Below, one piece after another: positions 515-43,119 of a DNA stretch of 43,119 bases. The first letter of the stretch is position 1. Each line of letters starts with the position of its first letter. Location: contig JAGCVY010000051.1 of NCBI GenBank assembly GCA_017962105.1, forward strand, positions 1-43,119, read 5' to 3'. This DNA comes from Lachnospiraceae bacterium (GTDB taxonomy: Bacteria > Bacillota > Clostridia > Lachnospirales > Lachnospiraceae). The translations under genes were made by a program, and so were the position numbers. The notes under the pieces were generated by a model. It searched no databases, was not told where the DNA came from, and saw only the letters and a list, made by a program, of their open reading frames with translations.

Positions 515-1720
515 ATGGAACGGATCGTGAACAGTTTGCTGGAAACGGATGCCTACAAGTTCTCTATGGGACAGGGGATTTATCACCAGTTCAGTGACTA
601 CAAGACGACCTGGTCATTCAAGTGCCGCAACAAGGACGTGTTCTTCACACCGGAGATGGTGGAGGAGATCAAGCGGCAGGTACAACTGTACTGCGACCTT
701 CGCTTCAGCGAAGAAGAGCTGGCGTATCTTGAGAATATCCGCTGGATCAAAGGTTCCTATGTCGATTTCCTTCGGTTGTGGAAACCGCGCTATGCGGATT
801 TTGAGTTCGGCACGGACGACCCCTGCGGTCTGACCATCGAGACCAAGGGAACGTGGCTTAACACCTCGATGTATGAGATCCCCCTTTTGGCGATCGTCAA
901 CGAAGTGTATTTCCAGATGCAGTATGATCATGACGAGCTGATGGCCAGCTACGTGCAGCGGCTCGATGACAAGATTGCCAAGCTGAAGAGCGGCGAGTAC
1001 GAACTCAACGTATTTTCCGAATTCGGATTGAGAAGAAGACTCTGCGCCGAGGCAGAGGCTCTGGCAATTGAAAAGCTTTCCCAGGAGAACATTCCCGGAT
1101 CGAAGTTCGTCGGTACTTCCAACGTGTATCTCGCGAAGAAGTACGGCGTGACGCCGGTGGGTACCATGGCACACGAGTGGATCATGTGTGTCGGCCAGGG
1201 CAACCACAAGCACAACCCGGCCTACTCCAACTGGTTCGCCTTGGATGCGTGGGTGAAGGAGTACGGCGTGCTCAACGGAACGGCCCTCACGGACACAATC
1301 ACCACCGACTGCTTCCTGCAGGACTTCCAGCTGACCTATTCGACGCTGTTCAGCGGCGTTCGCCACGACAGCGGTTCGCCGTACGAGTGGGGCGACAAGA
1401 TGCTTGCCCACTACGAAAAGCTCGGGATCGACGCGACGCAGAAAACGCTTCTGTTCAGTGACAGCCTCGATTTTGCCAAGGCGACGGAGATTTACCGTTA
1501 CTTCAAGGGCAAGGCGAAGGTTGCGTTCGGTATCGGTACCTACATTTCCAACGACACATTTGCCGAGCCGCTCAACATCGTTATGAAGACGACGGCTTGC
1601 AACGGTATGGATGTCGCCAAGATGTCCGACGTGAAGGGCAAGGGAATCTGCAAGAACCCGGATTACCTGCATTACCTGGAGCGCTGCATCGACTGGCGCA
1701 TGACGCACGAAGCAAAGTAA
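515..1720 (+). CDS. pncB: Nicotinate phosphoribosyltransferase
   Basis: This enzyme converts nicotinate and PRPP to nicotinate mononucleotide, the entry step of NAD salvage (Preiss-Handler pathway), in the cytoplasm. The protein has 401 residues, matching the E. coli PncB length. Recognisable stretches include the N-terminal LLETDAYKFSMGQ, GTSNVYLAKKYGVTPVGTMAHE (containing the phosphorylated-histidine region), the GVRHDSGSP loop and FGIGTYISND. The ATG at 515 is chosen because AAGGAGG stands at 501-507; a longer open frame upstream reads through the promoter and is not the true start. It appears monocistronic, with its own promoter. Confidence is high. Confidence 0.96.
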   Translation: MERIVNSLLETDAYKFSMGQGIYHQFSDYKTTWSFKCRNKDVFFTPEMVEEIKRQVQLYCDLRFSEEELAYLENIRWIKGSYVDFLRLWKPRYADFEFGTDDPCGLTIETKGTWLNTSMYEIPLLAIVNEVYFQMQYDHDELMASYVQRLDDKIAKLKSGEYELNVFSEFGLRRRLCAEAEALAIEKLSQENIPGSKFVGTSNVYLAKKYGVTPVGTMAHEWIMCVGQGNHKHNPAYSNWFALDAWVKEYGVLNGTALTDTITTDCFLQDFQLTYSTLFSGVRHDSGSPYEWGDKMLAHYEKLGIDATQKTLLFSDSLDFAKATEIYRYFKGKAKVAFGIGTYISNDTFAEPLNIVMKTTACNGMDVAKMSDVKGKGICKNPDYLHYLERCIDWRMTHEAK

Positions 1721-1831
1721 TCGGATATCGATTTTGTACGGAAATAAACCGCCGGACGGCGGAACAGCAGGACTGCGGCTCACACCGCAAGATTTCACCG
1801 CGGCAGAGATACAGCGGAGAAAGAAGGAATT

Positions 1832-4165
1832 ATGGACGAGAACAATCAACATGGCAGACGGAAAAATGTCACCGGTTCAACTGACGGCGCACACCGCAGA
1901 GGTCAGGGACTGAACACCGGTCACGTAGGTTCACAGGACGGATATTCCGGAAGACGGAAGGGTTCCGTATCCCTCGGCGGCGGAAGCGATGAGAGCTATT
2001 CCGGCGGCGGACACGGCATCACAAGGGCCAGCGGGATCAGTCTGATCGCCATCATCGGCGTTATTCTGTATATGATCATCGGCGGCAAATTCGGCGGCAC
2101 CGACACCGGTACGGATCAGACCCCGCAGGACGGCGATCATACCGCTGTCGGTGAAACGGGCGTTAACACGGAAGTTGCCAAGGGTTCCCGCGCAAAATAC
2201 ACGACGATCAAGGGCAACAATCAGGATACGGTTACCATTCTTGTGTACATGTGCGGTACCGACCTTGAGTCCAAGCACGGTATGGCTTCGAACGACCTTC
2301 AGGAGATGGCCAACGCCAATCTCGGAAGCAATGTGAACATCATTGTGTTCACCGGCGGATGCTCGAAGTGGAAGACCTCCGGTATCAGCAATTCCGTGAA
2401 CCAGATCTATCAGATCAAGGGCGGCGGATTGACCCGCCTGAAGGATGATGCCGGCAGCGGATCCATGGTTACACCGTCGACCCTTTCCGGATTCATCAAG
2501 TACGGCGTACAGAATTTTCCGGCGAACCGTTATGAGCTGATCCTCTGGGATCACGGCGGCGGATCCGTCAGCGGTTACGGCTATGATGAGAAAAATAAAA
2601 ACAGCGGTTCCATGAACCTTGCGGGCATCAACCAGGCTCTCAAGGATGGCGGCGTGAAGTTCGATTTCATCGGCTTCGATGCGTGCCTGATGGCTACCGC
2701 AGAGACGGCTTTGATGCTTGACTCCTACGCGGACTATCTGATCGCGTCCGAGGAGACGGAGCCCGGTATCGGCTGGTATTATACAAACTGGCTCAACAAG
2801 TTTGCGGCCAACACCTCGATGTCGACGGTCGATGTCGGTAAGATCATTGTCGATGACTTCGTGTCGGAGTGCAAGAGACGCTGCAACGGACAGAAGACCA
2901 CGCTCTCGGTTATCGACCTTGCGGAGTTCGCGAACACGATTCCCGACAATCTGAACAAGTTTGCGAAGTCCATCAGCACGAAGCTGGAGAAGAAGGAGTA
3001 CGAGGAAGTATCCAATGCCCGTAAGCTGACGAGAGAGTTTGCGACCAGCAACCGCATTGACCAGGTTGACCTTTGCGACCTTGCCAATAAGGTCGGTACC
3101 GACGAGGCAAAGGCACTTGCCAGTGCAATCCAGAAGGCGGTCAAGTACAACCGTACTTCCACCAATATGAGCAACTGCTACGGCGTTTCAATCTATTTCC
3201 CGTATAATTCCACGGGCAAGGTTGACAGCGCATGCAACACCTACAACCAGATCGGCATGGACAGCGAGTACTCGAAGTGCATCCGTCAGTTTGCAAGTCT
3301 TGAAACCGGCGGTCAGGTTGCTTCCGGCGGTTCGACCACCGCAACGTCCCTGATCGGTACGCTTCTCGGTGGCGGCGGAACAAGCGGTTCCTCGGGAAGC
3401 TCCGAGCTGATCGGATCCCTTCTGTCGAGCTTCCTCGGCGGCGGACGCAGCATCACGGGTCTTGACGATTCCAATACCGGATTCATGAAGGACCTTAACG
3501 TCAACGATGCGGCGGATTACTATGCGAGTCATTATCTCGATGCTTCCAAGCTCGTTTGGACGCTTCAGAACGGCCAGTACACCATGAACATCGGCAAGGA
3601 TCAGTGGGCGATGGTTCGCAGCATTGACAAGAACATGTTCCTTGACGACGGCTACGGCTACATCGATCTCGGTTGGGATGCACTGTATGAATATGAGAAC
3701 GGTGTGATCACCGCGGATATGGAGAAGACATGGCTCGGCATCAACGGCCAGCTGGTTGCCTACTATCGCACGGATTCCCTTTATGATGTGGAGACCAAAG
3801 AGAATCTGTACTATGGCTACATCCCGGCGCTCCTCAACGGTGAGCAGGTGAAGCTGCAGGTTGTCTTCGGCGCGGACGGCAAGGGTACCGTGATCGGTGC
3901 TACTGCCGCTTACGTGGATAACGAGACCGAGACGGTTGCAAAGAGCGTGACCGAGCTTGTTCAGGGCGATAAGATCGATTTCATCTGTGACTACTACCGC
4001 TATGACGGAACGTACGATAATTCCTACAAGATCGGTGAGCAGATCACTTATGTGAACACCCTCACCGTGACGGATCTTCTTATCACCGGACAGCAGGCGA
4101 AGATTTCGTACCGCTTCACCGATATGTACAACAAGGAATACTGGACAGATCCGGTTATCAAGTAA
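1832..4165 (+). CDS. Membrane-anchored clostripain-family (C11) cysteine protease
   Basis: The 777-residue protein has a cytoplasmic head of about 65 residues rich in Gly, Arg and Ser, one transmembrane segment (about 67-84), and an outer peptidase C11 domain from about 132. The catalytic dyad is visible: His241 in LILWDHGGG and Cys285 in GFDACLMAT. C11 enzymes usually cut after Arg or Lys and often self-process; I infer but cannot show this here. A Gly/Ser-rich linker (about 495-550) separates the protease from a C-terminal beta-rich domain of unknown role. The start at 1832 has an AGAAGGA ribosome site. It probably acts on surface or secreted proteins. The substrate is unknown. Confidence 0.9.
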   Translation: MDENNQHGRRKNVTGSTDGAHRRGQGLNTGHVGSQDGYSGRRKGSVSLGGGSDESYSGGGHGITRASGISLIAIIGVILYMIIGGKFGGTDTGTDQTPQDGDHTAVGETGVNTEVAKGSRAKYTTIKGNNQDTVTILVYMCGTDLESKHGMASNDLQEMANANLGSNVNIIVFTGGCSKWKTSGISNSVNQIYQIKGGGLTRLKDDAGSGSMVTPSTLSGFIKYGVQNFPANRYELILWDHGGGSVSGYGYDEKNKNSGSMNLAGINQALKDGGVKFDFIGFDACLMATAETALMLDSYADYLIASEETEPGIGWYYTNWLNKFAANTSMSTVDVGKIIVDDFVSECKRRCNGQKTTLSVIDLAEFANTIPDNLNKFAKSISTKLEKKEYEEVSNARKLTREFATSNRIDQVDLCDLANKVGTDEAKALASAIQKAVKYNRTSTNMSNCYGVSIYFPYNSTGKVDSACNTYNQIGMDSEYSKCIRQFASLETGGQVASGGSTTATSLIGTLLGGGGTSGSSGSSELIGSLLSSFLGGGRSITGLDDSNTGFMKDLNVNDAADYYASHYLDASKLVWTLQNGQYTMNIGKDQWAMVRSIDKNMFLDDGYGYIDLGWDALYEYENGVITADMEKTWLGINGQLVAYYRTDSLYDVETKENLYYGYIPALLNGEQVKLQVVFGADGKGTVIGATAAYVDNETETVAKSVTELVQGDKIDFICDYYRYDGTYDNSYKIGEQITYVNTLTVTDLLITGQQAKISYRFTDMYNKEYWTDPVIK

Positions 4166-4200: not shown

Positions 4201-4228
4201 AAATCCCGCCCAAAAGCGGGATTTTCCG
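4201..4228 (+). terminator. Hairpin after the C11 protease, weak intrinsic terminator
   Basis: A 9-bp perfect stem (4201-4209 with 4216-4224) ends in a short T-run. The tail of the hairpin contains one copy of the ATTTTCCG octamer (4221-4228). The short T-run makes termination only partly convincing. Confidence 0.6.
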
Positions 4229-4262: not shown

Positions 4263-6008
4263 ATGAGTTCAGACAGTATGGAAAACAAGAAGAAACATAA
4301 GAAGAAAAGACACGGCCATTGGGCCCAGTTCATTATTTTTCTTCTGCTGTTCGTTTTGATCGTGGCCATGATCATCCGGTTCGTTGCAGGACGGAGGATC
4401 ACCATGACACTAAACGGCGAGAGCGAGGTCACAGTGGAAATCGGCTCGCACTACATTGAGAAGGGTGCGACCGCCGTGTATGACCACAAGGGCTTCTCCT
4501 TCCTTCGGAATCAGCCTCTGGCGGTTGGTATCTCGGGAACTGTGGACACCTCCACCCTCGGCGACTATGAGGTTACCTACACCACCTCCTACGGCGGAAT
4601 GGAACAGAAGCTGGTGCGAAAGGTTCACGTGGCGGATACGCAGGCACCGGTGATCACGTTGAAGACGGCGCCGGATTATTATACGCCGATCGGCCAGGAG
4701 TATGTGGAAGAGGGCTTTGAAGCCATCGACGCCTACGACGGGGATGTCACGGAAAATGTGCTCCGCGAGGAGCCCGGTGACGGAACGATCCGCTACACCG
4801 TGAGCGACCGTGCGGGCAATAAGGCAGTGGTGACACGGCAGATCCCGTACGATGACCGTACGCTTCCGGAGATTACCCTTGAGGGTGACACGGAGGTGGT
4901 TGTCGATTACGACAGCACATATGCCGAGCCCGGTTATACGGCAACCGACGACGTCGACGGCGATATCACCGCAAAGGTGGTTGTGACGACGGCTCCCGGA
5001 GAAAAGAAGAACCACACGATCTACACATATTCTGTCGCGGATGAACACGGGAATACCGCAACGGTAACCCGTCTGGTAGTCCACATGGATCCCGATGTTC
5101 CGACTCTTGTGCTGGCGGGCGACGAGGAGATTACCCTGGTCGGCGGCGTCTGGTATAAGGAGCCCGGTTTCAAGGCGACGGACCGCAAGGACGGCGACCT
5201 CACGGATTCCGTGAAGGTGGACGGGGAAGTGACTTACTGGCATGTAGGCACCTACACCCTTACCTACTCGGTGAAGGATTCCGACGGAAACGAAGTGAAA
5301 GCCCAGAGAGTGATCACTGTCAAGGCGCGCGAGCTGCCTGAGCCTGTCACGCCGGACCCGAAGACGATCTATCTGACATTTGACGACGGCCCGAGTGACT
5401 ACACGCAGGAACTGTTGGATGTGCTTGCGAAATACGATGTCAAGGCGACATTTTTCGTAACCCACAACAACAAGCTGGCCAACGAGATGATCGTGAAGGA
5501 GCATGAGGCCGGCCATACCGTGGCAGTTCACACCTATACCCACGATTACAGCAAGGTATACAAGAGCGAGAAAGATTACTTCGATGACATGAACCGCATG
5601 AACGATGTCATCGAACAGTTGACCGGCGAGCGGGCGGCTATCATCCGTTTCCCGGGCGGCAGCTCCAACCAGGTCAGCCGCAACTACAGCACCGGCGTTA
5701 TGACCAGACTGGTTGCGGACATGGATGAGATGGGTATCCTGTTCTACGACTGGAACGTCTTAAGCGGCGACGCCGACAAGACCGGCGCCATTCCCACCGA
5801 GAAGGTCTACGAGAACGTCATCAACGGCGTTGCATACAACGCAAAGCGGGAACGTTTCTCGGTTGTTCTCCAGCACGACGTGAAGCACTTCTCCGTCCGT
5901 GCGGTTGAGGACATCATCAAGTGGGGCCTTGAGAACGGCTACACCTTCAAGCCCTTGGATCTCACCACACCGACCACCGGTGGTATCCACCAGACGGTTG
6001 CAAACTAA
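4263..6008 (+). CDS. Membrane-anchored polysaccharide deacetylase with Ig-like repeats
   Basis: The 581-residue protein has a basic cytoplasmic N-terminus, one transmembrane helix (about 22-42), about four repeated Ig-like modules of the DUF5011 type (about 48-355, with recurring EPGY/EPGF and DGD[IL]T signatures), and a C-terminal NodB domain (about 367-575). NodB metal and catalytic motifs are present: TFDDGP (Asp374, Asp375), the H-x3-H pair His423/His427, RFPGGSS at 462-468 and His538 in LQHD. The family removes acetyl groups from GlcNAc polymers; a peptidoglycan deacetylase role outside the membrane is the likeliest inference. An AAGGAAAG ribosome site precedes the ATG. It may instead act on another envelope glycan. 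Confidence 0.92.
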   Translation: MSSDSMENKKKHKKKRHGHWAQFIIFLLLFVLIVAMIIRFVAGRRITMTLNGESEVTVEIGSHYIEKGATAVYDHKGFSFLRNQPLAVGISGTVDTSTLGDYEVTYTTSYGGMEQKLVRKVHVADTQAPVITLKTAPDYYTPIGQEYVEEGFEAIDAYDGDVTENVLREEPGDGTIRYTVSDRAGNKAVVTRQIPYDDRTLPEITLEGDTEVVVDYDSTYAEPGYTATDDVDGDITAKVVVTTAPGEKKNHTIYTYSVADEHGNTATVTRLVVHMDPDVPTLVLAGDEEITLVGGVWYKEPGFKATDRKDGDLTDSVKVDGEVTYWHVGTYTLTYSVKDSDGNEVKAQRVITVKARELPEPVTPDPKTIYLTFDDGPSDYTQELLDVLAKYDVKATFFVTHNNKLANEMIVKEHEAGHTVAVHTYTHDYSKVYKSEKDYFDDMNRMNDVIEQLTGERAAIIRFPGGSSNQVSRNYSTGVMTRLVADMDEMGILFYDWNVLSGDADKTGAIPTEKVYENVINGVAYNAKRERFSVVLQHDVKHFSVRAVEDIIKWGLENGYTFKPLDLTTPTTGGIHQTVAN

Positions 6009-7273: not shown

Positions 7274-7353
7274 TCACATTTGCTGCTGTCTGTGTGTCGT
7301 TTTCAAAAAAGCAAGTATAACAATTTCTAATACGGAAAATAAGCAATGCTAAT

Positions 7354-8029: not shown

Positions 8030-9805
8030 ATGGAGCCAATGAAATGGAGCAAGTACGTAAAACCGTATCTTGCGTTCTTCATTCTCGGACCGTTGTGCAT
8101 GATCGTGGAAGTTATCGGTGAAGTTGTGATGCCGAAGCTTCTCTCGGTCGTGATCAACAACGCGAATGACGGAACTCTCACAACAGGCACAAGCCTCGGG
8201 ATCATGGGATTGATGATCCTGACCGCGCTTGTGATGATGGCCGGCGGCATCGGAGGCGCTTATTTTGCGTCGAAGGCCTCGGTCAGTTTCGCCGCTGATC
8301 TACGTGCGGACGGTTACCGCAGGATCCAGCAGTATTCGTTTGCAAACATCGACAAATTCTCCACCGGTTCCCTTGTGACGAGACTTACGAACGACGTCAC
8401 GCAGGTGCAGAACTTCGTCGCGATGGCACTCCGGATGGCGCTGCGTGCGCCCGACATGATGATCGCCGCGCTTGTCATGGCGATCCTGCTCAACCCGCCG
8501 TTGTCGGTTGTGTTCGCCGTCTCGGTGCCCGCGATGCTTCTCGCGGTCGGCGGGATCATCCGTACCGGTTTCCCCCGGTTCGGCCGTGTGCAGAAGAAGG
8601 TGGATGAGCTGAACTCCACGGTTCAGGAAAATGTCACCAACGTGCGCGTCGTAAAGAGCTTCGTCCGTGAGGACTTTGAGATCGACAAATTCCACGATGC
8701 GAACAGAAACCTGAAAAATGCGGGTATTTCCGCTTCGAAGGTTATGATCTTCATGTCCCCGGTCATGACACTGTTCATGAACGGAACGGTCATCGCGGTC
8801 ATTTTGATCGGCGGTCCCATGGTTTTGGAAAACGGGATGAAGATCGGCGATCTCTCCGCATTCTTAACCTATGTTACGCAGATCCTGTCGTCCCTTGTCA
8901 TGGTGACCTTCCTTCTGATGTTCTCCTCGAGAGCGCTGGCGTCCGCCAAGCGTATCCGCGAGGTTATGGACGAGCCGCTTGACCTGACGGATGAAAATGC
9001 ACAGCATCTGGAGCTTCAGGTGGAGCGCGGCGACATCACCTTCAAAAATGTCTCCTTCCGCTACTATAAAAACAGCGAGGAGAAGGTTTTGAACAATATC
9101 AACTTAGAGATTTCGGCCGGTTCGACGGTCGGCATCATCGGATCCACGGGCTGCGGCAAGACAACCCTGGTATCCATGATCCCGAGACTGTACGACTGCG
9201 ACGAGGGCGAGGTCCTTGTGGACGGCGTGAACGTCCGCGATTACTCCCTCTACAATCTTCGCGAGGGCGTCTCCATGGTATTGCAGAAGAACACCCTGTT
9301 CTCCGGCACGGTTACCGAGAACCTGCAGTGGGGCGATGAGAACGCCTCCGACGAGGAGATCCGCCGCATGGCGGAGTACGCTCAGGCCGACAAGTTCGTG
9401 TCCTCCTTCAAGGACGGCTATAACACGATGATCGAGCAGGGCGGCGCCAATGTATCCGGCGGCCAGAAGCAGCGTCTGTGTATCGCCAGAGCGCTTCTGA
9501 AGAAACCGAAGATCCTGATCCTCGACGATTCGACCAGCGCCGTGGATACGGCGACGGAAGCTCAGATCCGCAAGGCATTTTCCGAGAAAGCCGTTGCCGG
9601 CGAGCAGACCGATCCGTATACGGAAAATCTCCGCAAGGCCACGAAGCTGATCATCGCGCAGCGCATCAGCTCCGTGCAGGACGCCGACACCATTATCGTT
9701 ATGGATGAGGGCGTCATCACGGGTATGGGTACCCACGATGAGCTTCTTGCGAACAACACCGAGTACCGTGAAATTTACGAGTCTCAGACGGGAAAGGGGT
9801 CGTGA
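8030..9805 (+). CDS. ABC exporter half-transporter, degenerate-site subunit
   Basis: The 591-residue protein is a type IV ABC exporter half: an N-terminal six-helix membrane domain (about 10-310) and a C-terminal nucleotide-binding domain. Walker A is GSTGCGKTT (about 371-379) and the signature is VSGGQKQ (about 474-480). The Walker B region reads ILILDDSTSAVD, so the catalytic Glu is replaced by Asp, and the H-loop reads IIAQRISS with Gln in place of His. These changes define the inactive-site partner of heterodimeric exporters such as BmrCD, LmrCD and TM287/288. The next gene starts three bases after this stop and supplies the partner. The likely role is drug or lipid export. Confidence 0.93.
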   Translation: MEPMKWSKYVKPYLAFFILGPLCMIVEVIGEVVMPKLLSVVINNANDGTLTTGTSLGIMGLMILTALVMMAGGIGGAYFASKASVSFAADLRADGYRRIQQYSFANIDKFSTGSLVTRLTNDVTQVQNFVAMALRMALRAPDMMIAALVMAILLNPPLSVVFAVSVPAMLLAVGGIIRTGFPRFGRVQKKVDELNSTVQENVTNVRVVKSFVREDFEIDKFHDANRNLKNAGISASKVMIFMSPVMTLFMNGTVIAVILIGGPMVLENGMKIGDLSAFLTYVTQILSSLVMVTFLLMFSSRALASAKRIREVMDEPLDLTDENAQHLELQVERGDITFKNVSFRYYKNSEEKVLNNINLEISAGSTVGIIGSTGCGKTTLVSMIPRLYDCDEGEVLVDGVNVRDYSLYNLREGVSMVLQKNTLFSGTVTENLQWGDENASDEEIRRMAEYAQADKFVSSFKDGYNTMIEQGGANVSGGQKQRLCIARALLKKPKILILDDSTSAVDTATEAQIRKAFSEKAVAGEQTDPYTENLRKATKLIIAQRISSVQDADTIIVMDEGVITGMGTHDELLANNTEYREIYESQTGKGS

Positions 9806-9808: not shown

Positions 9809-11755
9809 ATGGCAAGATCATTGGAACAACTGCAGCAGCAGTACAACAGCATCGCTAAGAAAAACGCGTTTAAGCAACGCCCGCAGGGAGGTCCGAGAGG
9901 CCGCGGCATGATGGGCGGAAAGCCGAAGAGCGCGAAGAAGACGATCGCAAGACTTTTGACTTATATGAACGGGTTCCGGTTCCGGTTTGGACTCGTGTTG
10001 GCTTGTATGCTTCTCACCACCGTGACCAGCCTTGTGGGCAGCTACCTTCTTGCCCCGATCATCAACAAGCTGACCAAGGCAGTGCTTCCGGACAAGGTGA
10101 TCAAGGTTTCGCCCTTTGAGCGGATCGCCGACAACGCGATCACAAAACTGGCGGGCCGTTTCTTCCCCGGTGACGGGAAGGTTATGACTTACGTGCTGAT
10201 GGCCCTGATCATGCTCGGTGCGATCTACTGCATCGGCGTTATCACCACCTACACGCAGGCGAGACTGATGCTCTCCATCTCCCAGGGAATGATCGAGCGC
10301 ATCCGGAACGACCTGTTCTCGAAGCTTCAGCGGCTTCCGGTAAGATATTTTGACTCGAAGCAGACCGGTGAGATCATGTCCCGGTTTACCAACGATATCG
10401 ATAACATCGATGTCATGATCAACAACTCGTTTACGCAGATCGTATCCGGCGGCGTCACGCTGGTCGGAACGTTCGTCTTCATGATCACAACGAGCTGGAT
10501 CCTTACGTTGATTACCGTGGCCTTCATTCCGGTTCTTTTGTTCGGCGGTTTCACCATCGGCAAACTGAGCCGCAAATACTACGCCGCACAGCAGAGCGCC
10601 CTCGGCGCCGTGAACGGCTACATTGAGGAGACCGTCACCGGACAGAAGGTTGTCAAGGTGTTCAACCACGAGGAGTGCTGTGTGGAAGAATTTTCCGCAC
10701 TCAACGACGACATGCGCGACAAGCAGTTCAAGGCGCAGTTCTGGGGCGGCGTGACTGGTCCGATCATGGGCAACACCTCCCAGATCTCCTACGCTGCGAC
10801 AGTGGGTATCGGCGGCGTGCTTATGATCTTCGGCAAGATTACGGCCGGTGGTCTCACGGTTTTCGCAACCTACTCGCGTCAGTTCGCAATGCCGATCAAC
10901 ATGCTCTCCCAGCAGATGGCAACGTTCTTCTCCGCACTGGCGGGCGCAGAGCGTGTCTTCGAGGTGATGGATGAAGTTCCGGAGGCTCCGGACGCAGAGG
11001 ATGCAAATCCGTTGATCGGTATGAAGGGGCATGTGGTGCTGGATCACGTCACCTTCGGTTACAACCCGGATAAGATCGTTCTGCATGACATCAGCCTGTA
11101 TGCTAAGCCCGGTCAGAAGATTGCCTTCGTCGGTTCCACCGGCGCCGGCAAGACCACGATCACGAACCTTCTGAACCGCTTCTACGATGTCGACGAGGGT
11201 ACGATCACCATCGACGGTGTGAATGTCAAGAATATCAAGCGCAAGAACCTTCGTGAGAACATCGCCATGGTATTGCAGGATACGCATCTCTTCTCCGGCA
11301 CGGTGATGGAAAATATCCGTTACGGCCGGCTGGATGCCACGGATGAAGAGGTTATCGCCGCGGCCAAGACCGCGTCCGCACACAGTTTCATCATGCGTCT
11401 GTCGGACGGTTACAACACGAAGCTGGAGGGCGACGGCGCGAACCTTTCTCAGGGACAGCGGCAGCTTCTCAACATCGCGAGAGCAGCGCTCTCCAAGGCT
11501 CCGATCCTTGTCCTCGACGAGGCGACAAGTTCGGTCGATACCCGTACCGAGCGTCACATTGAGCACGGTATGGACCGCCTGATGAAGGACCGCACGACAT
11601 TTGTCATCGCGCACCGCCTTTCGACGGTACGAAACGCCAACGCCATCATGGTTTTGGAACACGGTGAGATCATCGAGCGGGGCAATCACGACGACCTGCT
11701 TGCACAGAAGGGCCGGTACTATGAGCTGTACACCGGCGTGAGGGAACTGGATTAA
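9809..11755 (+). CDS. ABC exporter half-transporter, catalytically competent subunit
   Basis: The 648-residue protein has a cytoplasmic N-terminal extension of about 45 residues rich in Gln, Gly, Arg and Lys, then a six-helix membrane domain and a nucleotide-binding domain. Walker A is GSTGAGKTT (about 444-452), Walker B with catalytic Glu is LVLDEATSSVD (about 566), and the H-loop His is present in VIAHRLST. Its signature is LSQGQ instead of LSGGQ. It would therefore form the weak half of the inactive site with the previous protein, while its own Walker motifs pair with the partner's intact signature to form the working site. The two genes are translationally close and almost certainly make one heterodimer. 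Confidence 0.93.
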   Translation: MARSLEQLQQQYNSIAKKNAFKQRPQGGPRGRGMMGGKPKSAKKTIARLLTYMNGFRFRFGLVLACMLLTTVTSLVGSYLLAPIINKLTKAVLPDKVIKVSPFERIADNAITKLAGRFFPGDGKVMTYVLMALIMLGAIYCIGVITTYTQARLMLSISQGMIERIRNDLFSKLQRLPVRYFDSKQTGEIMSRFTNDIDNIDVMINNSFTQIVSGGVTLVGTFVFMITTSWILTLITVAFIPVLLFGGFTIGKLSRKYYAAQQSALGAVNGYIEETVTGQKVVKVFNHEECCVEEFSALNDDMRDKQFKAQFWGGVTGPIMGNTSQISYAATVGIGGVLMIFGKITAGGLTVFATYSRQFAMPINMLSQQMATFFSALAGAERVFEVMDEVPEAPDAEDANPLIGMKGHVVLDHVTFGYNPDKIVLHDISLYAKPGQKIAFVGSTGAGKTTITNLLNRFYDVDEGTITIDGVNVKNIKRKNLRENIAMVLQDTHLFSGTVMENIRYGRLDATDEEVIAAAKTASAHSFIMRLSDGYNTKLEGDGANLSQGQRQLLNIARAALSKAPILVLDEATSSVDTRTERHIEHGMDRLMKDRTTFVIAHRLSTVRNANAIMVLEHGEIIERGNHDDLLAQKGRYYELYTGVRELD

Positions 11756-14523: not shown

Positions 14524-14532
14524 GGTTTGCGA

Positions 14533-32995: not shown

Positions 32996-33980
32996 CGAGG
33001 AACAAACACTGATCCGTCTGTTTACTTCCGACACGGTAAAGGAGTTTCGGACGGTTGATACCGGCCACGGGGATGACGATTTCCGGGAGGCAATTTTCGT
33101 GGAGACGGAGAGCTTCGGAAAGCTTGTCATAAAAGCTGCAGGCAACGCGTTCACAACGCCGGACAGCGTCAGAATGTGGCAGCGCTGTGCGGAGGAATAC
33201 CGGAAACTGGGGTATTACAGCCCGCAGATTTTCGCATCTCTGTCCGGGGAGTTCCCTGTGGTGGACTATAAGGGGCACAGGTGCGTTGCCTATGCGGAGG
33301 AATACTCGAAGTACGGTTCCGCGGAACATGTGAAGGATGCGAGGTATCTCAACGACGACCTCTATATCATGACGGCCAGGATTGCGGCAAAGCGGTTTGA
33401 TTACACGGATATTCCTTCGGGATATACGCTGTTTGACCTGTATCCCGGGGATGAGATGGATGAAGTGACCTGCAATGCATTGGATTTTCGGGAGTACTGC
33501 AAAACCCTGCCAGAGCGCTTCCGGGAGCAGACCGACCGGATGTTTCAGCGGTGGGAGGAGAACCGCCGTGAGCTTGAGAAGATTTATTTCAAACTCCCTT
33601 TCTCCGTGTTCCAGGCGGACTTCAATCCGACCAACGTTTTGATCGACGAGGACGGGAGGTTCGTCGGGATCTATGATTTCAATCTTGCCGGCAGGGATCA
33701 GTTCCTCAACTATCTCTTCCGGGAGATTCTCGGAAGCACCATGGAGAAGGAGCTTGCCGAGATACTGCGGGCTCTGAGGATTGTAAGGGAATACTACACA
33801 TTTTCCGAGGAAGAAATTGCGGCGGCACCCCTGATCTACCGCTGTGTGAAACCATTATGGTTCTGTCCGGTGGACGATCTGAAAAACGCCGGGACCGACC
33901 CGGAAGCCATACAGAAGCAGCTGGATGAAATGGAATATGCACAGGTGCGGGAGATCGATTTTGCAAGTGCCATGAAGTGA
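32988..33980 (+). CDS. Aminoglycoside phosphotransferase (APH)-fold kinase
   Basis: The 330-residue protein has an APH/choline-kinase fold. The catalytic loop is FQADFNPTN with Asp211 and Asn216, in which Gln stands where His is usual, and the metal-binding Asp230 in IYDFNLAG. The N-lobe Lys is likely in KLVIKAAGN. APH-fold enzymes phosphorylate antibiotics, choline, homoserine or sugars; nothing here picks one. The ATG at 32988 follows GGGGAG, and overlaps the MFS stop by 8 bases, so it may be part of the same transcript. No promoter was seen upstream. Confidence 0.87.
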   Translation: MNNEEQTLIRLFTSDTVKEFRTVDTGHGDDDFREAIFVETESFGKLVIKAAGNAFTTPDSVRMWQRCAEEYRKLGYYSPQIFASLSGEFPVVDYKGHRCVAYAEEYSKYGSAEHVKDARYLNDDLYIMTARIAAKRFDYTDIPSGYTLFDLYPGDEMDEVTCNALDFREYCKTLPERFREQTDRMFQRWEENRRELEKIYFKLPFSVFQADFNPTNVLIDEDGRFVGIYDFNLAGRDQFLNYLFREILGSTMEKELAEILRALRIVREYYTFSEEEIAAAPLIYRCVKPLWFCPVDDLKNAGTDPEAIQKQLDEMEYAQVREIDFASAMK

Positions 33981-35931: not shown

Positions 35932-35960
35932 TTGACATTTTCCGAAAGAACCTTTATAAT
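35932..35960 (+). promoter_or_regulatory. Consensus sigma-A promoter of the ABC-F leader
   Basis: TTGACA (35932-35937) and TATAAT (35955-35960) are both perfect and 17 bases apart. The 331-base gap 35899-36229 is an untranslated leader with a small ORF, hairpins at 35968-35983 and 35992-36003, and a terminator. Confidence 0.92.
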
Positions 35961-36229: not shown

Positions 36230-37786
36230 ATGTTCCAGATAAGACATGTTACCTTAACACACAAAAAAGACCTGCATACGATAGTCTCGGATTTATCCCT
36301 CGCATTGAATGACGACGACCGCGCCGTTCTGATCGGGGAGGAAGGCAACGGAAAGTCCACGCTGATGAAGTGGATCTATGATCCGGAGCTGGTGGAAGAC
36401 TATATCGAGTATGAAGGCGAAAAGATTGTAAGCGGAGAGAAGTTGGCATATCTCCCGCAGGAACTGCCGGAGGAGACGAAGGCGAAGAGCGTCTACGAGT
36501 ATTTTACGGATTGCGAGGGGTTTGCGGAGGCGTCGCCGAGAGAACTCTCGAAGATGGCCGCGGACTTCCGGGTGGAGCCGGAGTTTTACTACCGCGATCA
36601 GCCCATGGGAACGCTTTCCGGCGGCGAGCGGGTGAAGGCACAGATGATGCGGATTCTCTGCGAGAAGCCGACGATCCTTCTTTTGGATGAGCCCTCGAAC
36701 GACATCGATATCGAGACGCTTGAGTGGATGGAAAAATTCATCAACAGCTGGCCCCATGCGGTGTTGTTTATCTCCCACGATGAGACATTGATCGAGCGGA
36801 CCGCCAACCGTGTAATCCACTTCGAACAGCTCCGGAGAAAGACCATGTGCCGACATACGGTGGCCAATGTGCCGTATCGGCAGTATGTCTCGGAGCGTCT
36901 GAACGCGTTTGAAAAGCAGGAGCAGATCGCGGAGTGTGAGCGCCGCGAGAAGCGCATCCGCGACGAGAAGATCCGCAAACAGGAGCAGGCGGTAAACGCA
37001 CAGCTCAGCAACGCGCATTACTCGTTTCACGATTCCCTCGGCCGGATCCTCAAGAAAAAGATGAAGAACGTCAAGTCGTTGGAGCACCGCTTCCAGCGGG
37101 AGGACGAGAATATGACGGAATTCCCCGAGCAGGAGGAAGCAATCTACTTCAAGCTCGGCGACGCAAACAGCGCAGTTCCGTCCGGAAAATGGGTCGTGCA
37201 ATGCGAGCTTCCGGCTCTCAACACGGCGGACGGCGCCAGGGTTTTAGCGGAAAATGTGGAGCTTAGGGTCCGGGGTTCCGAGAAGATTGCCATCATCGGC
37301 AGCAACGGCAGCGGTAAGACCACATTCCTCTCGAAGCTGGCGGAGGATCTGCTGGCCAGGAAGGATCTTCGGGTGGAGTATATGCCGCAGAACTACGAGG
37401 AGCTGCTTCCGATGGATCAGACTCCGGTGGATTTTCTGGACAGGACCGGAGACAAGGAGGAGCGGACACGGATCCGCACCTATTTAGGATCCTTAAAGTA
37501 CACCTTTGATGAGATGGACCATCCGATCCGGGAACTTTCGGGCGGACAGAAGGCGAAGGTATTGCTTCTTAAGCTCAGCATGTCGGGAGCCAATGTGCTT
37601 CTTCTCGATGAGCCGACACGGAATTTTTCGCCGTTGTCGGGGCCGGTAATCCGGCGGATGCTTGCGGATTTTCCGGGGGCGATCATCAGCGTCTCCCACG
37701 ACCGCAAATATCTCTCCGAGGTTTGCGACACGATTTACCGGCTGACGCCGGATGGGCTTTCCAAAATCGAGGAAGGCATTCAATAA
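36230..37786 (+). CDS. ABC-F ATPase, ribosomal-protection type
   Basis: The 518-residue cytoplasmic protein has two ATPase domains without a membrane part. Domain 1 has Walker A GEEGNGKST (about 37-45), signature LSGGER and Walker B LLLDEPSNDID. A helical linker (about 215-290, rich in Glu, Arg and Lys) forms the interdomain arm, the part that reaches the ribosome. Domain 2 has GSNGSGKTT, LSGGQK and LLLDEPTRNFSPLS. The last motif is the form I recall from the Lsa/CplR/Vga-like antibiotic resistance group. Such proteins remove lincosamide, streptogramin A or pleuromutilin from the ribosome. The ATG at 36230 follows AAGGAGG. Substrate class is inferred. Confidence 0.9.
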   Translation: MFQIRHVTLTHKKDLHTIVSDLSLALNDDDRAVLIGEEGNGKSTLMKWIYDPELVEDYIEYEGEKIVSGEKLAYLPQELPEETKAKSVYEYFTDCEGFAEASPRELSKMAADFRVEPEFYYRDQPMGTLSGGERVKAQMMRILCEKPTILLLDEPSNDIDIETLEWMEKFINSWPHAVLFISHDETLIERTANRVIHFEQLRRKTMCRHTVANVPYRQYVSERLNAFEKQEQIAECERREKRIRDEKIRKQEQAVNAQLSNAHYSFHDSLGRILKKKMKNVKSLEHRFQREDENMTEFPEQEEAIYFKLGDANSAVPSGKWVVQCELPALNTADGARVLAENVELRVRGSEKIAIIGSNGSGKTTFLSKLAEDLLARKDLRVEYMPQNYEELLPMDQTPVDFLDRTGDKEERTRIRTYLGSLKYTFDEMDHPIRELSGGQKAKVLLLKLSMSGANVLLLDEPTRNFSPLSGPVIRRMLADFPGAIISVSHDRKYLSEVCDTIYRLTPDGLSKIEEGIQ

Positions 37787-38927: not shown

Positions 38928-39202
38928 TGAAGATTACGGATGTTGATATTGCAAGAGGGCATCTCTTGCTCGGCCTTTCCGACGGGCGATGGGCGTATGT
39001 CCAGGGCGAGATGGTTTTCGGAATGAAATTTTATGCGGACTACCGCGGAAAATGGTACTGGATCCGGAAGCCGGAGGGCACAATCTACCTTCTTTCGGAT
39101 TCTGATGTCGTTGCGCCGATGGGCGATGCGGATAAGGACGCTTTGTCCGCGGCGATCAAAGAGTATTTCAGCAACACGAAATATAAAGTTATCGTGGATT
39201 GA
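38927..39202 (+). CDS. Small protein of unknown function (91 residues)
   Basis: No family is recognised. The protein has beta-type strands with a W-x-Y pattern (GRWAYVQGEMVFG, GKWYWIRKPEG) and an Asp-rich loop followed by a C-terminal helix. There is no signal or membrane segment. Its ATG overlaps the GNAT stop (TGATG), which implies it is translated with the acetyltransferase. It could be a regulator or an immunity-type protein, but there is no direct evidence. Confidence 0.75.
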   Translation: MKITDVDIARGHLLLGLSDGRWAYVQGEMVFGMKFYADYRGKWYWIRKPEGTIYLLSDSDVVAPMGDADKDALSAAIKEYFSNTKYKVIVD

Positions 39203-39323: not shown

Positions 39324-40415
39324 ATGATATTCCAGGACAATATTATCAAACAGTATTTGAAAAATGTGTACTTTATCGCGGGCACGCCCTGCGGCGGCAA
39401 GACCACCGTATCCCGGGCACTCGCAAAGAAATACGGGATTCCGGTTTATGACATCGACGAGCGTTTCCCGGAGCATCAGGCAATGTCGGATGCGGTTTCG
39501 CAGCCGGCGATGAACAAGAATTTCCGCGACGCCGACGAGTTCTTCGGGCGGAGCGTCGAGGAGTACAAGGCGTGGCTTCTTCAGAACATGAGGGAGCAGC
39601 TGGATTTCGTTCTTCTTGACCTGATGCGTCTCTCAAAGGATCAGATCGTGCTTTGCGACTGCCATCTTACACTGGAGCAGGCAGCGCAGTTTACGAATCC
39701 CGCGCACGTGGCATTCATGTTGAAGAAGCCGGAAAATCTTGTGGACGAGTATTGCAACCGCCCGGATCATCAGGGCTTCAGCGATTTCATCCACAGCGCG
39801 ACGGACTTTGAGGCGGCGAAGGCCACCTGCAACGAAACGCTTCTCTCGCTCAATGCGAAATATTATGAGGACGTGAAGGCGAGCGGATACTTCTATGTCG
39901 ATCGGGCGGACGGCTTGAGCGTCGACGAGACCGTGGCGCTCACGGCGAAGCATTTCGGGTTTGACCGGTTAATGCAGATTGTCAAAGTCGAGAAGGACAC
40001 ACCCTTCGCGGCGGAGTTTCTCCGGTTCGTGGAGAACTGCTCGTGGACGGAGGTTCGCGATCACATCGCGGGTCTAGTCAGAGATTGGCAATTCACGGAC
40101 TGGGAGACGATGTTCGCGGCGGTGAAGGACGGTAAGATCGCCGGTATGGCATCGCTTCTGAAGACGGACTATTATCCCCTGCCGCAAATCTATCCGTGGG
40201 TGTCGTGCGTGTTCGTTGAGAAGGAGTACCGCGGCGACCGGATCAGCGGAGCGCTGATCGACGCGGCTAATCGGTACGCGAAGGAGCAGGGCTTTACGAA
40301 AACCTACATTCCGACGGAGTATACGGGGCTGTATGAGCGGTACGGTTACACCTACGTAAAGGACATCGTCAATTACGGCGGTGGCACGGACAGACTGTAC
40401 GAAAAAGAGTTGTAA
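39324..40415 (+). CDS. P-loop kinase-like domain fused to a GNAT acetyltransferase
   Basis: The 363-residue protein starts with a P-loop NTPase domain (about 10-210) whose Walker A is GTPCGGKTT (20-28), as in shikimate or adenylate kinase-like proteins, with DIDERFPEH and a possible lid region near 135-165. A GNAT domain follows (about 215-363), with WVSCVFVEKEYRGDRISGALI as the acetyl-CoA site and GLYERYGYTYV at the end. A two-activity enzyme is suggested, which recalls the two-domain AAC-APH resistance enzymes in concept only. AAAAGGAGA precedes the ATG. Substrates unknown. Confidence 0.88.
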   Translation: MIFQDNIIKQYLKNVYFIAGTPCGGKTTVSRALAKKYGIPVYDIDERFPEHQAMSDAVSQPAMNKNFRDADEFFGRSVEEYKAWLLQNMREQLDFVLLDLMRLSKDQIVLCDCHLTLEQAAQFTNPAHVAFMLKKPENLVDEYCNRPDHQGFSDFIHSATDFEAAKATCNETLLSLNAKYYEDVKASGYFYVDRADGLSVDETVALTAKHFGFDRLMQIVKVEKDTPFAAEFLRFVENCSWTEVRDHIAGLVRDWQFTDWETMFAAVKDGKIAGMASLLKTDYYPLPQIYPWVSCVFVEKEYRGDRISGALIDAANRYAKEQGFTKTYIPTEYTGLYERYGYTYVKDIVNYGGGTDRLYEKEL

Positions 40416-40504: not shown

Positions 40505-41290
40505 GTGAATTATTTCGTGGAAGGCATACAGGGCGCCGGCAAGAGCACACTGGTGAGCCGTCTGGCGAAACATTTTCCGAGGTATCGGGTGTTTCGAGAG
40601 GGAGACTATAATCCGGTGGAGCTTGCGTGGTGCGCATACCTGACGGAAACGCAGTACGAGGAAGTGCTGGCGCGGTACGAGAGCCTCCGGGGGGAAATCG
40701 TTGCCAATACGCACACGGAGGGCGACCGAAAGATTGTCACCTACACGAGGATCATCACGGACGTTCCGGGGTTTCACAAGGACCTGGAGCAGTACGAGAT
40801 TTACAATGACCGTCTGGGGCGTGCGGAGTTTGAGGAGATCATCCTCGGGCGCTACGCGCGGTGGGACGGCGACAATTCCATTTTTGAGTGTTCTATTTTC
40901 CAAAACATTGTGGAGAATCAGATACTATTTTACGAGATGAATGACGAAGAGATCGTGGATTTTTTCCTGCGGCTTAAGGCCGTTCTCGCGGGGCGGGACT
41001 TCCGGATCCTGTATCTGGAGGCAGATGACATTGCCGGGTCTCTTCAGATCATCCGTAAAGAGCGCGTCGACCAAAGCGGCGCTGAAATGTGGTTTCCGCT
41101 AATGGCCGGATTCTTGGAGGGGAGTCCCCATGGCGTGCGCCACGGACTGAAGGGATTTGAAGGACTTGTAAAACATTTGGAACATCGCAAAGTTTTGGAG
41201 AAGCGGATCTTAAGGGAAGTTTTTCCGGAGCAGGCGGTAATCCTTAAGTCAAAACAATATGATTTGAATGCGGCCTTGGACAGCCTTTGA
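40505..41290 (+). CDS. P-loop kinase-like protein
   Basis: The 261-residue protein begins MNYFVEGIQGAGKST, with the Walker A at 7-15 (GIQGAGKST), followed by REGDYNP and a helical body. It resembles nucleoside or thymidylate kinase-like P-loop proteins found near antibiotic-type enzymes, but I cannot name the substrate. The GTG at 40505 follows TGAGGTGG and decides the start; the frame continues upstream without a ribosome site. It is 89 bases after the P-loop/GNAT gene and is followed within 3 bases by the APH-fold gene. Confidence 0.82.
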   Translation: MNYFVEGIQGAGKSTLVSRLAKHFPRYRVFREGDYNPVELAWCAYLTETQYEEVLARYESLRGEIVANTHTEGDRKIVTYTRIITDVPGFHKDLEQYEIYNDRLGRAEFEEIILGRYARWDGDNSIFECSIFQNIVENQILFYEMNDEEIVDFFLRLKAVLAGRDFRILYLEADDIAGSLQIIRKERVDQSGAEMWFPLMAGFLEGSPHGVRHGLKGFEGLVKHLEHRKVLEKRILREVFPEQAVILKSKQYDLNAALDSL

Positions 41291-41293: not shown

Positions 41294-42328
41294 GTGCCGC
41301 AGGATTCGGAGGACAAAAAGACGAACAATTTTTTTGAAAAGGCAAGAGAACTTTATCAACTGAACGGTTATGAATTACAGGCGGTTGCCGGACATGAGGG
41401 CGGCCGCAATGACATTTACATTTGCTCCTTGAACGGAGAGAAAAAGTATGTGCTTCGCATCTCGGCGACGGGCGACCGCAGAGAGGAGAATTACCTCGCG
41501 GAGACCGAGTTCGTGCATTATCTGGCAGTCGGCGGGGCGCTTGTTGCGGACGTGATCCCGTCGAAGAACGGGCGACTTGTGGAGCACATCGCTTCGGAAA
41601 ATGACACTGACAAAGCGGTTGTCTTTGCAAGCCTTTTCGAGTTTGCAAAGGGGATGCTTCTGTGTGATAACGGCTATCGTTACCGCGAAGGAGCGCCGCT
41701 TACGGAGTACTTTTATAACACTGGAAAGACGCTCGGTGCGATCCACCGGCTGGCGAAGTCTTTTACGCCGAAACACCGCCGTGCAGACTATTTCGATAAG
41801 TTCAACATGGACTACATCGGGAAGCTGATCCCGGACGAATATGCGGAGTTAAAGGCGGCAATTGCCGATCGTATCCGGCAGTTTAAGGAATTTCCGAGGA
41901 CACCGGATAACTATGGATTGGTGCATTTTGATTTTTGCGATGGCAACTATCATGTGGATCTGAATACCGGCGATGTCACAGCGTTTGATTTTGACAATTG
42001 CTGCTATTGCTGGTACATGTTCGATCTGGCGCATCTGTGGACGCACGGCATCGGTTGGTTTATGCAGGAGCGCGATGCGGCGAAACGCAGGGAAGGCATG
42101 GAGTGGTACTTTAACCACATCCTGAGCGGTTACCGCAGTGAAACGGACGTGTCCGAAGAGGAACTGTCGAGGCTTCCGCTGTACATCGATATGACGATCA
42201 TCGAGTCCGTCGTTGACGAGTTCGAATGCGCAGCGCGCGAGGGTGAGGACGTGGATCCCGAGGACATCGAGGATGAGGCGGAATGCCTAATCGGCGGGAT
42301 TCCTTACGCGGGGTACTTCGAGGAGTAA
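41294..42328 (+). CDS. APH-fold phosphotransferase
   Basis: The 344-residue protein has a complete APH fold: N-lobe Lys in KYVLRIS, catalytic loop LVHFDFCDGN with Asp213 and Asn218, and the metal site FDFDN with Asp232. Unlike the first APH-like gene at 32988, the loop His is present. It starts with GTG three bases after the previous stop, with no strong ribosome site, so coupled translation is likely. Family members phosphorylate antibiotics, sugars or amino acids such as homoserine; the context of acetyltransferases, ABC-F and a nucleotidyltransferase suggests a drug or toxin, but this is inference. Confidence 0.9.
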   Translation: MPQDSEDKKTNNFFEKARELYQLNGYELQAVAGHEGGRNDIYICSLNGEKKYVLRISATGDRREENYLAETEFVHYLAVGGALVADVIPSKNGRLVEHIASENDTDKAVVFASLFEFAKGMLLCDNGYRYREGAPLTEYFYNTGKTLGAIHRLAKSFTPKHRRADYFDKFNMDYIGKLIPDEYAELKAAIADRIRQFKEFPRTPDNYGLVHFDFCDGNYHVDLNTGDVTAFDFDNCCYCWYMFDLAHLWTHGIGWFMQERDAAKRREGMEWYFNHILSGYRSETDVSEEELSRLPLYIDMTIIESVVDEFECAAREGEDVDPEDIEDEAECLIGGIPYAGYFEE

Positions 42329-42357
42329 CCGGCATCGAAACAAAGGAGGGAAGGCAA

Positions 42358-43119
42358 ATGATCTCACTGACGAGAGCACAGATGAAAGCTTCGTTTGCTT
42401 CATTTTGCGAAGAGATATTTCGCCTTCCCGAAATTGAAAGCATCATCAGGGTGAGGAGCGTGACCGTCCGGCGCGAGGATTTGCGAGAGACGGCGAAGGA
42501 GGCTGTTGCAGTTGGCTATCACGACTGTTACAGCGACACGGACATGTCTCTTACCGTGTGCCTTCCCGCAGACGGCTCCGTCACGCCCGATGAGTACATG
42601 AGACGGATCGACCGGTTCGGTGTGAATGAGGAGACCGCGCTCGGGTGGATGTTTGTGTCGGAAGGGTCGATGTACCGCATCATTTTCCGAAACGGTATGA
42701 GGTACGATTTCGGCTTTTCTTTTGTGTATACGGAAAATGTGACTCTTGATCTCGGTGAGGCTCCGCAGACTATAGAAAATCCGGACTGGCCGCTTGCGAA
42801 CATCCGGCGGTTCTGGTTTGTGCAGATTCAGGCGCTCGCAAAGCTGTACCGGAAGGACTATCTGATCGGAGCGCATCTTGCACACATGAACTGCAACGAG
42901 ACCCTGGTGATGCAGATGGTGCTTCGGGATCTTAAGTACGGGACTAACCATCATCGTTACGGCTACGCGGAAGAAGCGGAGTACGTGAAGGAATTGGGGC
43001 GGATGCCTTACAAAAACGACGATGCGGAGTTTCTTCGGATTGCGGATCAGCTGTACGCGGCGGCGCTTGCTTATGATCGTCTGGCGGCAGAGTTTTACCC
43101 TGCATATAAGGCCCAAAGC
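42358..43119 (+). CDS. Nucleotidyltransferase-like protein, 3' end cut by window
   Basis: The frame is open from the ATG at 42358 (AAAGGAGGGAA upstream) to the last base, 254 codons, with no stop. The N-terminal domain has AVGYHDCYSDTDMSLTV with Asp60 and Asp62, which fits a nucleotidyltransferase active site as in the ANT(6) streptomycin adenylyltransferases, though the usual Gly-Ser is replaced by Gly-Tyr. The rest is helical with NCNETLVMQMVLRDLKYG. The assignment is tentative. It lies 30 bases after the APH-fold gene and is likely in the same operon. Confidence 0.8.
   Translation, partial: MISLTRAQMKASFASFCEEIFRLPEIESIIRVRSVTVRREDLRETAKEAVAVGYHDCYSDTDMSLTVCLPADGSVTPDEYMRRIDRFGVNEETALGWMFVSEGSMYRIIFRNGMRYDFGFSFVYTENVTLDLGEAPQTIENPDWPLANIRRFWFVQIQALAKLYRKDYLIGAHLAHMNCNETLVMQMVLRDLKYGTNHHRYGYAEEAEYVKELGRMPYKNDDAEFLRIADQLYAAALAYDRLAAEFYPAYKAQS

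Follow-up and report, generated by a model that had tools for sequence, protein, structure and literature searches.

Why should one short word lie scattered at high density over both strands of a Lachnospiraceae genome? The question is raised by the 43,119-nt stretch of DNA analyzed here as a whole (the window), in which the octamer CGGAAAAT, a non-palindromic word that differs from its own reverse complement, was found 32 times, 14 times as CGGAAAAT (+) and 18 times as ATTTTCCG (−). In the host assembly of 2.59 Mb (105 contigs, 95.9% complete; genome handle G000), the window constitutes contig 6. By analogy with known systems, the word may be a self-recognition motif resembling the DNA uptake sequences (DUSs) of other bacteria, a reading that we hold to have about equal chances of being right and wrong.

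The word is enriched throughout the genome

A recount of the window recovered all 32 copies of the original prediction, with their places and orientations, as well as the G that follows the octamer in 18 of the 32. The excess had been put at about 30-fold; a strong excess was indeed found, but its size was reduced to about 16-fold, as the octamer had a mean of 2.02 and a maximum of 7 copies in 100 dinucleotide-shuffled windows. Among all 8-mers of the window, CGGAAAAT ranked commonest. The genome-wide count that had been proposed gave 1,060 copies of the 9-mer CGGAAAATG (537 forward and 523 reverse), versus 8 copies (5 + 3) of a control, the same 9-mer reversed without complementing, in the same assembly.

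A 338-kb sample of the genome was read, consisting of the window and 20 stretches, of which L083 and L087 were all N and were dropped before counting. CGGAAAATG was the most enriched 9-mer of this sample (129 copies versus 9.3 expected from an order-3 Markov model), and the enrichment reached the longer CATTTTCCGAA (28 versus 0.46 expected). Nine motif-rich species contributed a further 898 kb; when the background was computed with the motif masked, the exact word stood at 298 copies versus 16.4 expected, an approximately 18-fold excess. In these species, the enrichment of one-base variants was 3.7- to 10-fold at positions 1, 3, and 9 and 4.3-fold for C at position 4, and the twelve one-base variants at positions 5–8 comprised seven below expectation (0.35–0.83) and five at 1.06–1.93. 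T was preferred at positions −2 and −1, and G then C on the 3′ side of the octamer, giving the consensus TTCGGAAAATGC, which has a strict AAAT center with G before it and tolerant positions ahead.

Coding context, polarity, and spacing of the copies

Genes were called with a simple script rather than a standard gene finder. By these calls, the 240 octamer copies of the 338-kb sample were divided into 96 in the sense and 99 in the antisense orientation to genes and 45 between genes, with a density of 1.23/kb in intergenic versus 0.66/kb in coding DNA. Synonymous-codon shuffles of the 255 called genes produced 21 copies (standard deviation 4.3, maximum 32, n = 100) versus the 195 actual coding copies, and a codon-context origin, one of the alternatives offered in the original prediction, was therefore rejected. 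The enrichment itself withstood this within-gene shuffle, and it extended both to intergenic DNA and to the rest of the genome. The GAA-AAT and TTT-TCC frames, to which the coding copies had been assigned, were in fact the commonest (61/96 sense and 49/99 antisense copies) but not the exclusive ones, since all six frames were occupied. The six copies previously placed between genes were intergenic by the script calls as well, which add the copy at 39046.

Orientation of the copies was unrelated to GC skew (40:38 and 49:55 in 51 five-kb intervals with clear skew) and nearly even with respect to genes (96:99). Neither the replication-linked orientation bias of Chi nor the origin-to-terminus polarity of FtsK-orienting KOPS sequences was thus found, in agreement with the earlier argument that equal use of the two orientations speaks against both; Chi and KOPS are disfavored. 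The spacing of copies was a little more regular than random (coefficient of variation 0.87 for 221 gaps), and the longest motif-poor intervals of the 338-kb sample held housekeeping-like genes, as judged by eye.

The enrichment ratio climbed with G+C when nine genomes were pooled. Within genomes, copies/kb were nearly independent of G+C (pooled rho 0.14, p 0.01; 350 windows from nine genomes), and among ten genomes tested the dependence was significant alone only in G021. Because the pooled trend mixed genomes of different G+C and the rise in the ratio mostly reflected a falling expectation, it is no evidence for the avoidance of foreign DNA.

Close neighbors are preferentially inverted

In ten motif-rich genomes, 12 of 13 neighboring octamer pairs no more than 30 bp apart, and 8 of 9 at 31–60 bp, were inverted relative to each other; when A or T was allowed at position 3, the fractions were 24/27 and 25/32. 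Neighbors at 251–500 bp were inverted in 47 of 66 cases, that is, orientation alternates above expectation at this distance, and the bias was weak or absent at 61–120 bp (7/12) and beyond 2 kb (68/132). A set of 275 control words similar in composition gave 159 direct and 104 inverted pairs at distances of up to 60 bp. The number of close pairs was as expected (11 versus 9.1 within 30 bp in nine genomes), and the bias resides in pair orientation, not in pair number.

Related species carry graded dialects of the word

The sister-species comparison recommended in the original prediction was made with a genus set of 22 genomes, own included, and a wider family set of 250 genomes, 248 of them from other genera. 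It revealed related dialects and one three-species clade with little or none of the word. Copies of CGGAAAATG numbered 63 to 1,060 per genus genome, with the strands nearly equal. Typical counts in the family set ranged from some tens to about 200, and three genomes stood out against their reversed controls: G229 (340 versus 5), G094 (401 versus 15), and G110 (337 versus 20). Related words were found in the samples of all 22 genus genomes as well as of G094 and G110. The ratio of the exact word to its mean one-mismatch neighbor was 1.2 in G013, 1.3 in G019, 3.4 in G110, and 5.8 in G094.

The dialects were compared in a matrix of CATT-N-N-CC variants versus an order-2 expectation. In G000, G021, G010, G002, G008, G016, G006, G009, and G014, the enrichment amounted to about 10- to 24-fold for CATTTTCC and to about 2.5- to 5-fold for CATTTGCC, and the corresponding values were about 3- to 6.6-fold and about 4.5- to 8-fold in G015, G005, G011, G020, G001, G012, and G007. 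G018 had CATTTTCC at 5.7-fold, plus CATTTTGC in the sample scan; the enriched words were CATTTTCC, CATTTGCC, and CATTTACC in G003 and CATTTTCC and CATTTGCC in G017, and CATTG-N-CC with any N, along with CATTTTCC, was enriched in G094. In G004, G013, and G019, CATTTTCC was just 1.6- to 2.2-fold enriched. The sum of all 16 CATT-N-N-CC variants separated the genomes poorly (1.5 in G004, 1.4 in G018, 1.6 in G012, and 1.2 in both G013 and G019).

Whole-genome counts of GGCAAATG were 512–622 in G001, G005, G011, G015, and G020, 416–438 in G003, G007, G009, and G012, 320–345 in G004, G014, G017, and G021, and 191–288 in G000, G002, G006, G008, G010, G016, and G018; the counts in G013 (84) and G019 (106) were both under their controls. 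The dialects thus share one frame, CATT-N-N-CC, graded by lineage and not all-or-none, and because the counts are graded, the dialects represent preference shifts rather than clean replacements. A weak signal persisted in G004 (four CATTT-N-CC words at 33 versus 13.6 expected; GGCAAATG at 337 versus 150 for the control), which is compatible with decay or with a weak dialect. G004, G013, and G019 formed one clade in an rpoB tree (support 88/84 for protein and 94/95 for DNA) of 18 of the 22 genus genomes plus G240 and G094, which left out G001 and G017 (no match), G008, and G016.

Between five and seven window sites could be aligned per sister row, and 40–71% of them were intact versus 17–26% for other 8-mers of equal G+C, in a small sample whose 11 rows represent about 8 species and whose control 8-mers were not matched for codon position. 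The same contig, to judge by its length and coordinates, occurred in three pairs of rows (L001/G010, L003/G002, and L005/G018).

Uptake genes and a pilus operon poor in the word

ComEA was found in all 22 genus genomes (above the curated cut-off in 21) and ComEC proper, extending beyond the C-terminal domain alone, in 20 of 22 (above the cut-off in 14). PilB was found in 19 of 22; the G009 copy is fragmentary and the G014 copy is split. A CpaF-like ATPase was not found in G000 or G020 and was at most a fragment in G003. In the host genome, the genes for PilB, PilT, PilC, pilin, and PilM lie close together, and the pilus proteins were confirmed with family profiles.

The window itself encodes a solo second PilT-family ATPase, PilT2. 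It was detected in 19 of the 22 genus genomes, with identities of 94–100% in 11 genomes (own included), 74–75% in seven, and 60% in G003. It was not found in G004, G013, and G019, which have little or no motif and whose best match was the operon PilT at 50% identity. This co-absence makes PilT2 a candidate partner of the word. Matches that resemble PilT2 but are interrupted by in-frame stops were reported at G094:C57:73942-74988 and G137:C9:108663-109706.

In 1.02 Mb of the ten motif-rich genomes, no motif-free interval was longer than the 10.4 kb taken up by the G018 pilus operon. The case was found through a search for the largest gap, and the four operons examined are orthologous and not independent. 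Each was compared with other, overlapping windows. Counting the word and its near variants, we found 1 copy versus 10.0 expected in the G021 operon (0/200 other windows as low), 1 versus 7.9 in the G018 operon (0/185), 0 versus 5.5 in the initial 5-kb part of the G000 operon (0/965), and 0 versus 4.4 in the G015 operon (3/180). For the octamer alone, the other windows as low were 0/200 (G021), 0/185 (G018), 6/965 (G000), and 49/180 (G015). The 10.9 kb of G000 that follow this 5-kb part had six positions of the word (L216). The operons, at a G+C of 0.50–0.53, differed by no more than about four points from the genome samples (0.516–0.555). In the ComEA–ComEC region, no depletion was seen in G000, G008, G009, and G014, the density being ordinary, and a shielding of all competence genes from the word is therefore not supported. 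In the same four genomes as the operons, the gap just 5′ of pilB holds two to four copies, near variants counted.

Comparison with known dispersed words

Dialects, inverted pairs, and an intergenic preference have been described for the DUS of Neisseriaceae in the accessible part of PMC3630211. The word under study and the DUS, as described there, are alike in being non-palindromic, about 10–12 bases long, and present in about 1,000 or more copies per 2–3 Mb. Both favor intergenic DNA, form inverted pairs, and have dialects that vary by lineage while a core stays fixed, with two dialects in a single genome. They differ in that sequence and phylum are unrelated and that 1,060 exact 9-mers were counted versus about 1,900 10-mers reported for N. 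meningitidis (PMC3630211, accessible part). The uptake signal sequence (USS) of Pasteurellaceae also has a 9-base core in two versions, quoted as AAGTGCGGT and ACAAGCGGT in that part of PMC3630211, and a minor pilin has been proposed as its receptor in the portion of PMC12616744 available. The present host is a member of the Lachnospiraceae, and TTCGGAAAATGC is unrelated to the quoted USS forms and no member of the USS sequence family. We take it to be unlike the neisserial DUS as well. The species known to have a USS are diderm. Like Chi, the word is a short overrepresented sequence that differs between species, but it is without polarity. HIP1 of cyanobacteria (GCGATCGC) is likewise a dispersed and very frequent octamer, but HIP1 is palindromic and CGGAAAAT is not, so the word is not of the HIP1 kind.

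A possible role in DNA uptake

The features by which the class of uptake sequences is recognized at the sequence level were present, and by this resemblance the word may belong to the class, whose defining property is that DNA with the word is taken up preferentially and whose sequence-specific receptors include ComP and the proposed ComN. Copies balanced between the strands and denser between genes, inverted pairing, dialects that keep a fixed core, one clade nearly devoid of the word, and the genes of an uptake machine together produce the likeness. A likeness to the uptake sequences of Haemophilus and Neisseria had been noted in the original prediction; it is strengthened by the symmetry, the intergenic excess, the inverted pairs, the dialects, and the finding of ComEA, ComEC, and in most cases a type IV pilus in the genus, and weakened by the occurrence of the word in G229, where no pilus was detected. 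A fuller proposal, that this is an uptake-sequence system outside Neisseriaceae and Pasteurellaceae, with a receptor tied to the pilus that enforces a separate DNA dialect in each species of a Lachnospiraceae genus and with a pilus operon nearly free of the word, is more tentative, and we think it somewhat likelier to fail than to hold.

We infer the reading of the word in the course of uptake, the kind of protein that reads it, and the drive behind its accumulation. Double-stranded DNA bearing the word would be preferred by a DNA receptor at the cell surface, for which a type IV pilin or a protein associated with the pilus is the likeliest candidate; PilT-type ATPases, PilT2 of the window perhaps among them, would retract the pilus, and the DNA would be handed to ComEA and ComEC. 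Homologous recombination would then swap resident alleles for word-bearing ones, and repeated rounds could build up copies genome-wide on both strands, mostly where the sequence is free to vary. A drift of the receptor preference would shift the genome to a new dialect, and with a loss of specificity the copies would decay.

Several findings weigh against a role in uptake. The word-poor pilus operon is not predicted by an uptake model, and for GGAAAATG alone the short-range inversion was not significant (7/10 and 4/6). An avoidance of AT-rich, perhaps foreign, DNA, which would have lent support, was not upheld within genomes. ComEC is interrupted in G011, the ComEC of G016 and G017 is a match to the C-terminal part only (model positions about 440–663), and PilB was not found in the word-bearing G001, G016, and G017, whose assemblies are 79–82% complete. 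The motif-poor clade of G013, G019, and G004 retains ComEC, ComEA, and a pilus operon with the same gene set as that of the host, its genes being labeled by short signatures in the sequence (by eye for PilC of G019 and G004); PilD was not seen in the G004 stretch. Since PilT2 identities follow the species tree and the three genomes without PilT2 form one clade, the co-absence of gene and word counts as a single event. To our knowledge, sequence-specific uptake is not known in monoderm bacteria.

Two genomes of other genera add to these points. G141 has a 73%-identical PilT2 and neither the word nor a dialect in the 24 kb read (GGCAAATG 132 versus 185 for the control). In G229 (98% complete), 2,404 sites match the word with no more than one mismatch, 340 of them exactly, and the exact count is about 4.4 times that of the mean neighbor; 4 copies versus 0.77 expected were counted in 26.5 kb. 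No PilB or PilT was detected in G229; the sole pilus ATPase found there appears to be CpaF-like. The assembly may lack the pilus locus, a Tad-type pilus may take its place, or the word may not depend on a pilus; in Micrococcus luteus, a Tad/Flp pilus serves DNA uptake, according to the accessible part of PMC6370729. Beyond the genus, a strict tie between the word and either type IV pili or PilT2 is thus not supported.

Alternative explanations

The copies could instead be sites, spread over the whole chromosome, to which a cytoplasmic protein binds (a nucleoid organizer, a condensin loader, or a segregation or repair factor), with the sites or their density directly selected. A strict core with graded outer tolerance resembles protein recognition, and the intactness of the alignable window sites relative to control 8-mers, the slightly regular spacing, the near-independence of copies/kb from G+C, and the word in G229, with neither PilB nor PilT detected, all fit such a site; nevertheless, a change of dialect within the genus and near-absence in one clade would be unexpected for an essential organizing site, and inverted close neighbors are not predicted, so that we regard it as unlikely. 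Improbable, in our judgment, is a self-mark for restriction, methylation, or another defense, under which foreign DNA without the word would be attacked. A lineage-specific word would suit such a mark, as would the Mrr-type restriction endonuclease gene at 14527-15690 (its linkage to the word is unsupported), but a mark requires no inverted pairing. The restriction systems we know of deplete, rather than enrich, their own sites.

A Chi-like recombination signal read by AddAB would account for an overrepresented short word varying by species, and AddA- and AddB-like genes, labeled by eye, are present in the sampled stretches; the lack of polarity relative to genes or GC skew, together with the intergenic excess and the preference for inverted neighbors, makes it quite improbable. 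The A-tract content and the two favored coding frames would suit a by-product of mutation or codon context (slippage, biased repair, or preferred codon pairs) with no dedicated reader. Such an origin is hardly credible in view of the codon shuffles (21 versus 195), the occurrence on both strands and in all frames with a greater intergenic density, the one-mismatch neighbors at positions 5–8, which reach 0.35–1.93 of expectation versus 18 for the exact word, and the near-absence of the word from the sister clade.

No uptake sequence has been reported for Lachnospiraceae or other Firmicutes in the open-licence literature searched, and among the matches listed for the octamer as text in that literature, none was by its title on such a dispersed word. 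PMC3388099, in its accessible part, names Lachnospiraceae solely for a restriction-enzyme homologue. If the uptake function is true, this would be, as far as we know, the first-known uptake word in Firmicutes and would imply sequence-specific natural transformation in a monoderm gut lineage. The dialects of the genus would then be a natural experiment on the origin, change, and loss of self-recognition in DNA uptake, and recombination barriers would be predicted in the gut microbiome, where the dialect would shape who recombines with whom. Should the word turn out to serve the nucleoid or DNA repair, it would still be a densely spaced and rapidly evolving binding motif of the chromosome, of a type for which we found no description in this group.

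Features of the window and minor observations

The positions of the copies, of two genes of the window, and of the word-poor operon stretches are collected in Table 1. The nicotinate phosphoribosyltransferase of the window has as relatives mostly metagenome-assembled genomes named Lachnospiraceae, many of them from the rumen (best 80 of 527 loci); nine of these best 80 are at 86–93% identity, and the next is at 80%. By these relatives, the host itself is probably a gut Lachnospiraceae.

Table 1. Copies of the octamer and other features (window positions, except where a stretch handle is given; 9-mer, octamer with the following G)
Feature	Position	Strand	Remarks
CGGAAAAT copy	1012..1019	-	intact in 10/10 sister alignments covering the site
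CGGAAAAT copy	2514..2521	-	intact in 0/10 sister alignments
CGGAAAAT copy, intergenic	4221..4228	-	
CGGAAAAT copy, 9-mer	4750..4757	+	
CGGAAAAT copy, intergenic	7333..7340	+	
CGGAAAAT copy, 9-mer	9577..9584	-	intact in 11/11 sister alignments
CGGAAAAT copy	9621..9628	+	
CGGAAAAT copy	10690..10697	-	
CGGAAAAT copy	11922..11929	-	
CGGAAAAT copy, 9-mer	13495..13502	+	
CGGAAAAT copy, 9-mer	15522..15529	-	
CGGAAAAT copy, 9-mer	16467..16474	-	
CGGAAAAT copy, 9-mer, intergenic	18663..18670	-	
CGGAAAAT copy	19528..19535	+	
CGGAAAAT copy, 9-mer, intergenic	25013..25020	-	left half of overlapping inverted pair
CGGAAAAT copy, 9-mer, intergenic	25019..25026	+	right half of overlapping inverted pair
CGGAAAAT copy	25839..25846	-	
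CGGAAAAT copy	27416..27423	-	
CGGAAAAT copy	29406..29413	-	
CGGAAAAT copy	31356..31363	+	
CGGAAAAT copy, 9-mer	32370..32377	+	
CGGAAAAT copy, 9-mer	33800..33807	-	
CGGAAAAT copy, 9-mer, intergenic	35937..35944	-	
CGGAAAAT copy, 9-mer	37183..37190	+	
CGGAAAAT copy, 9-mer	37248..37255	+	
CGGAAAAT copy	37668..37675	-	
CGGAAAAT copy, 9-mer	39046..39053	+	intergenic by script gene calls
CGGAAAAT copy	39730..39737	+	
CGGAAAAT copy, 9-mer	40572..40579	-	
CGGAAAAT copy, 9-mer	41595..41602	+	
CGGAAAAT copy, 9-mer	42682..42689	-	
CGGAAAAT copy, 9-mer	42731..42738	+	inverted to 42682 copy at 49 bp
PilT2, solo second PilT-family pilus ATPase, 352 aa	6113..7171	-	TIGR01420, 436.7 bits (cut-off 319.1)
Protein with Mrr-type restriction endonuclease domain	14527-15690	+	PF04471
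Word-poor pilus operon stretch, G018	L232:9149-20000		
Word-poor pilus operon stretch, G021	L222:9757-20000		
Word-poor pilus operon stretch, G000	L215:15006-20000		
Word-poor pilus operon stretch, G015	L220:1-8785		

Among other relatives, L031 and L013 had words in numbers too small for a judgment. Octamers of two other stretches were dropped as candidates because of their position inside local 53-bp tandem arrays, which held 24/24 copies in L048 (L048:13425-14047) and 5/10 copies in L053 (L053:1711-2036). A second enriched word, CTATGAG, was seen in the G000 sample (59 versus 13.9 expected), with CCTCATAG at 24 versus 4.2, and TCCTATGAAA, which resembles it, is repeated in G013 (L101-L105). 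A GC-rich repeat family around CCCCGTCCCC is present in G012 (L133-L136).

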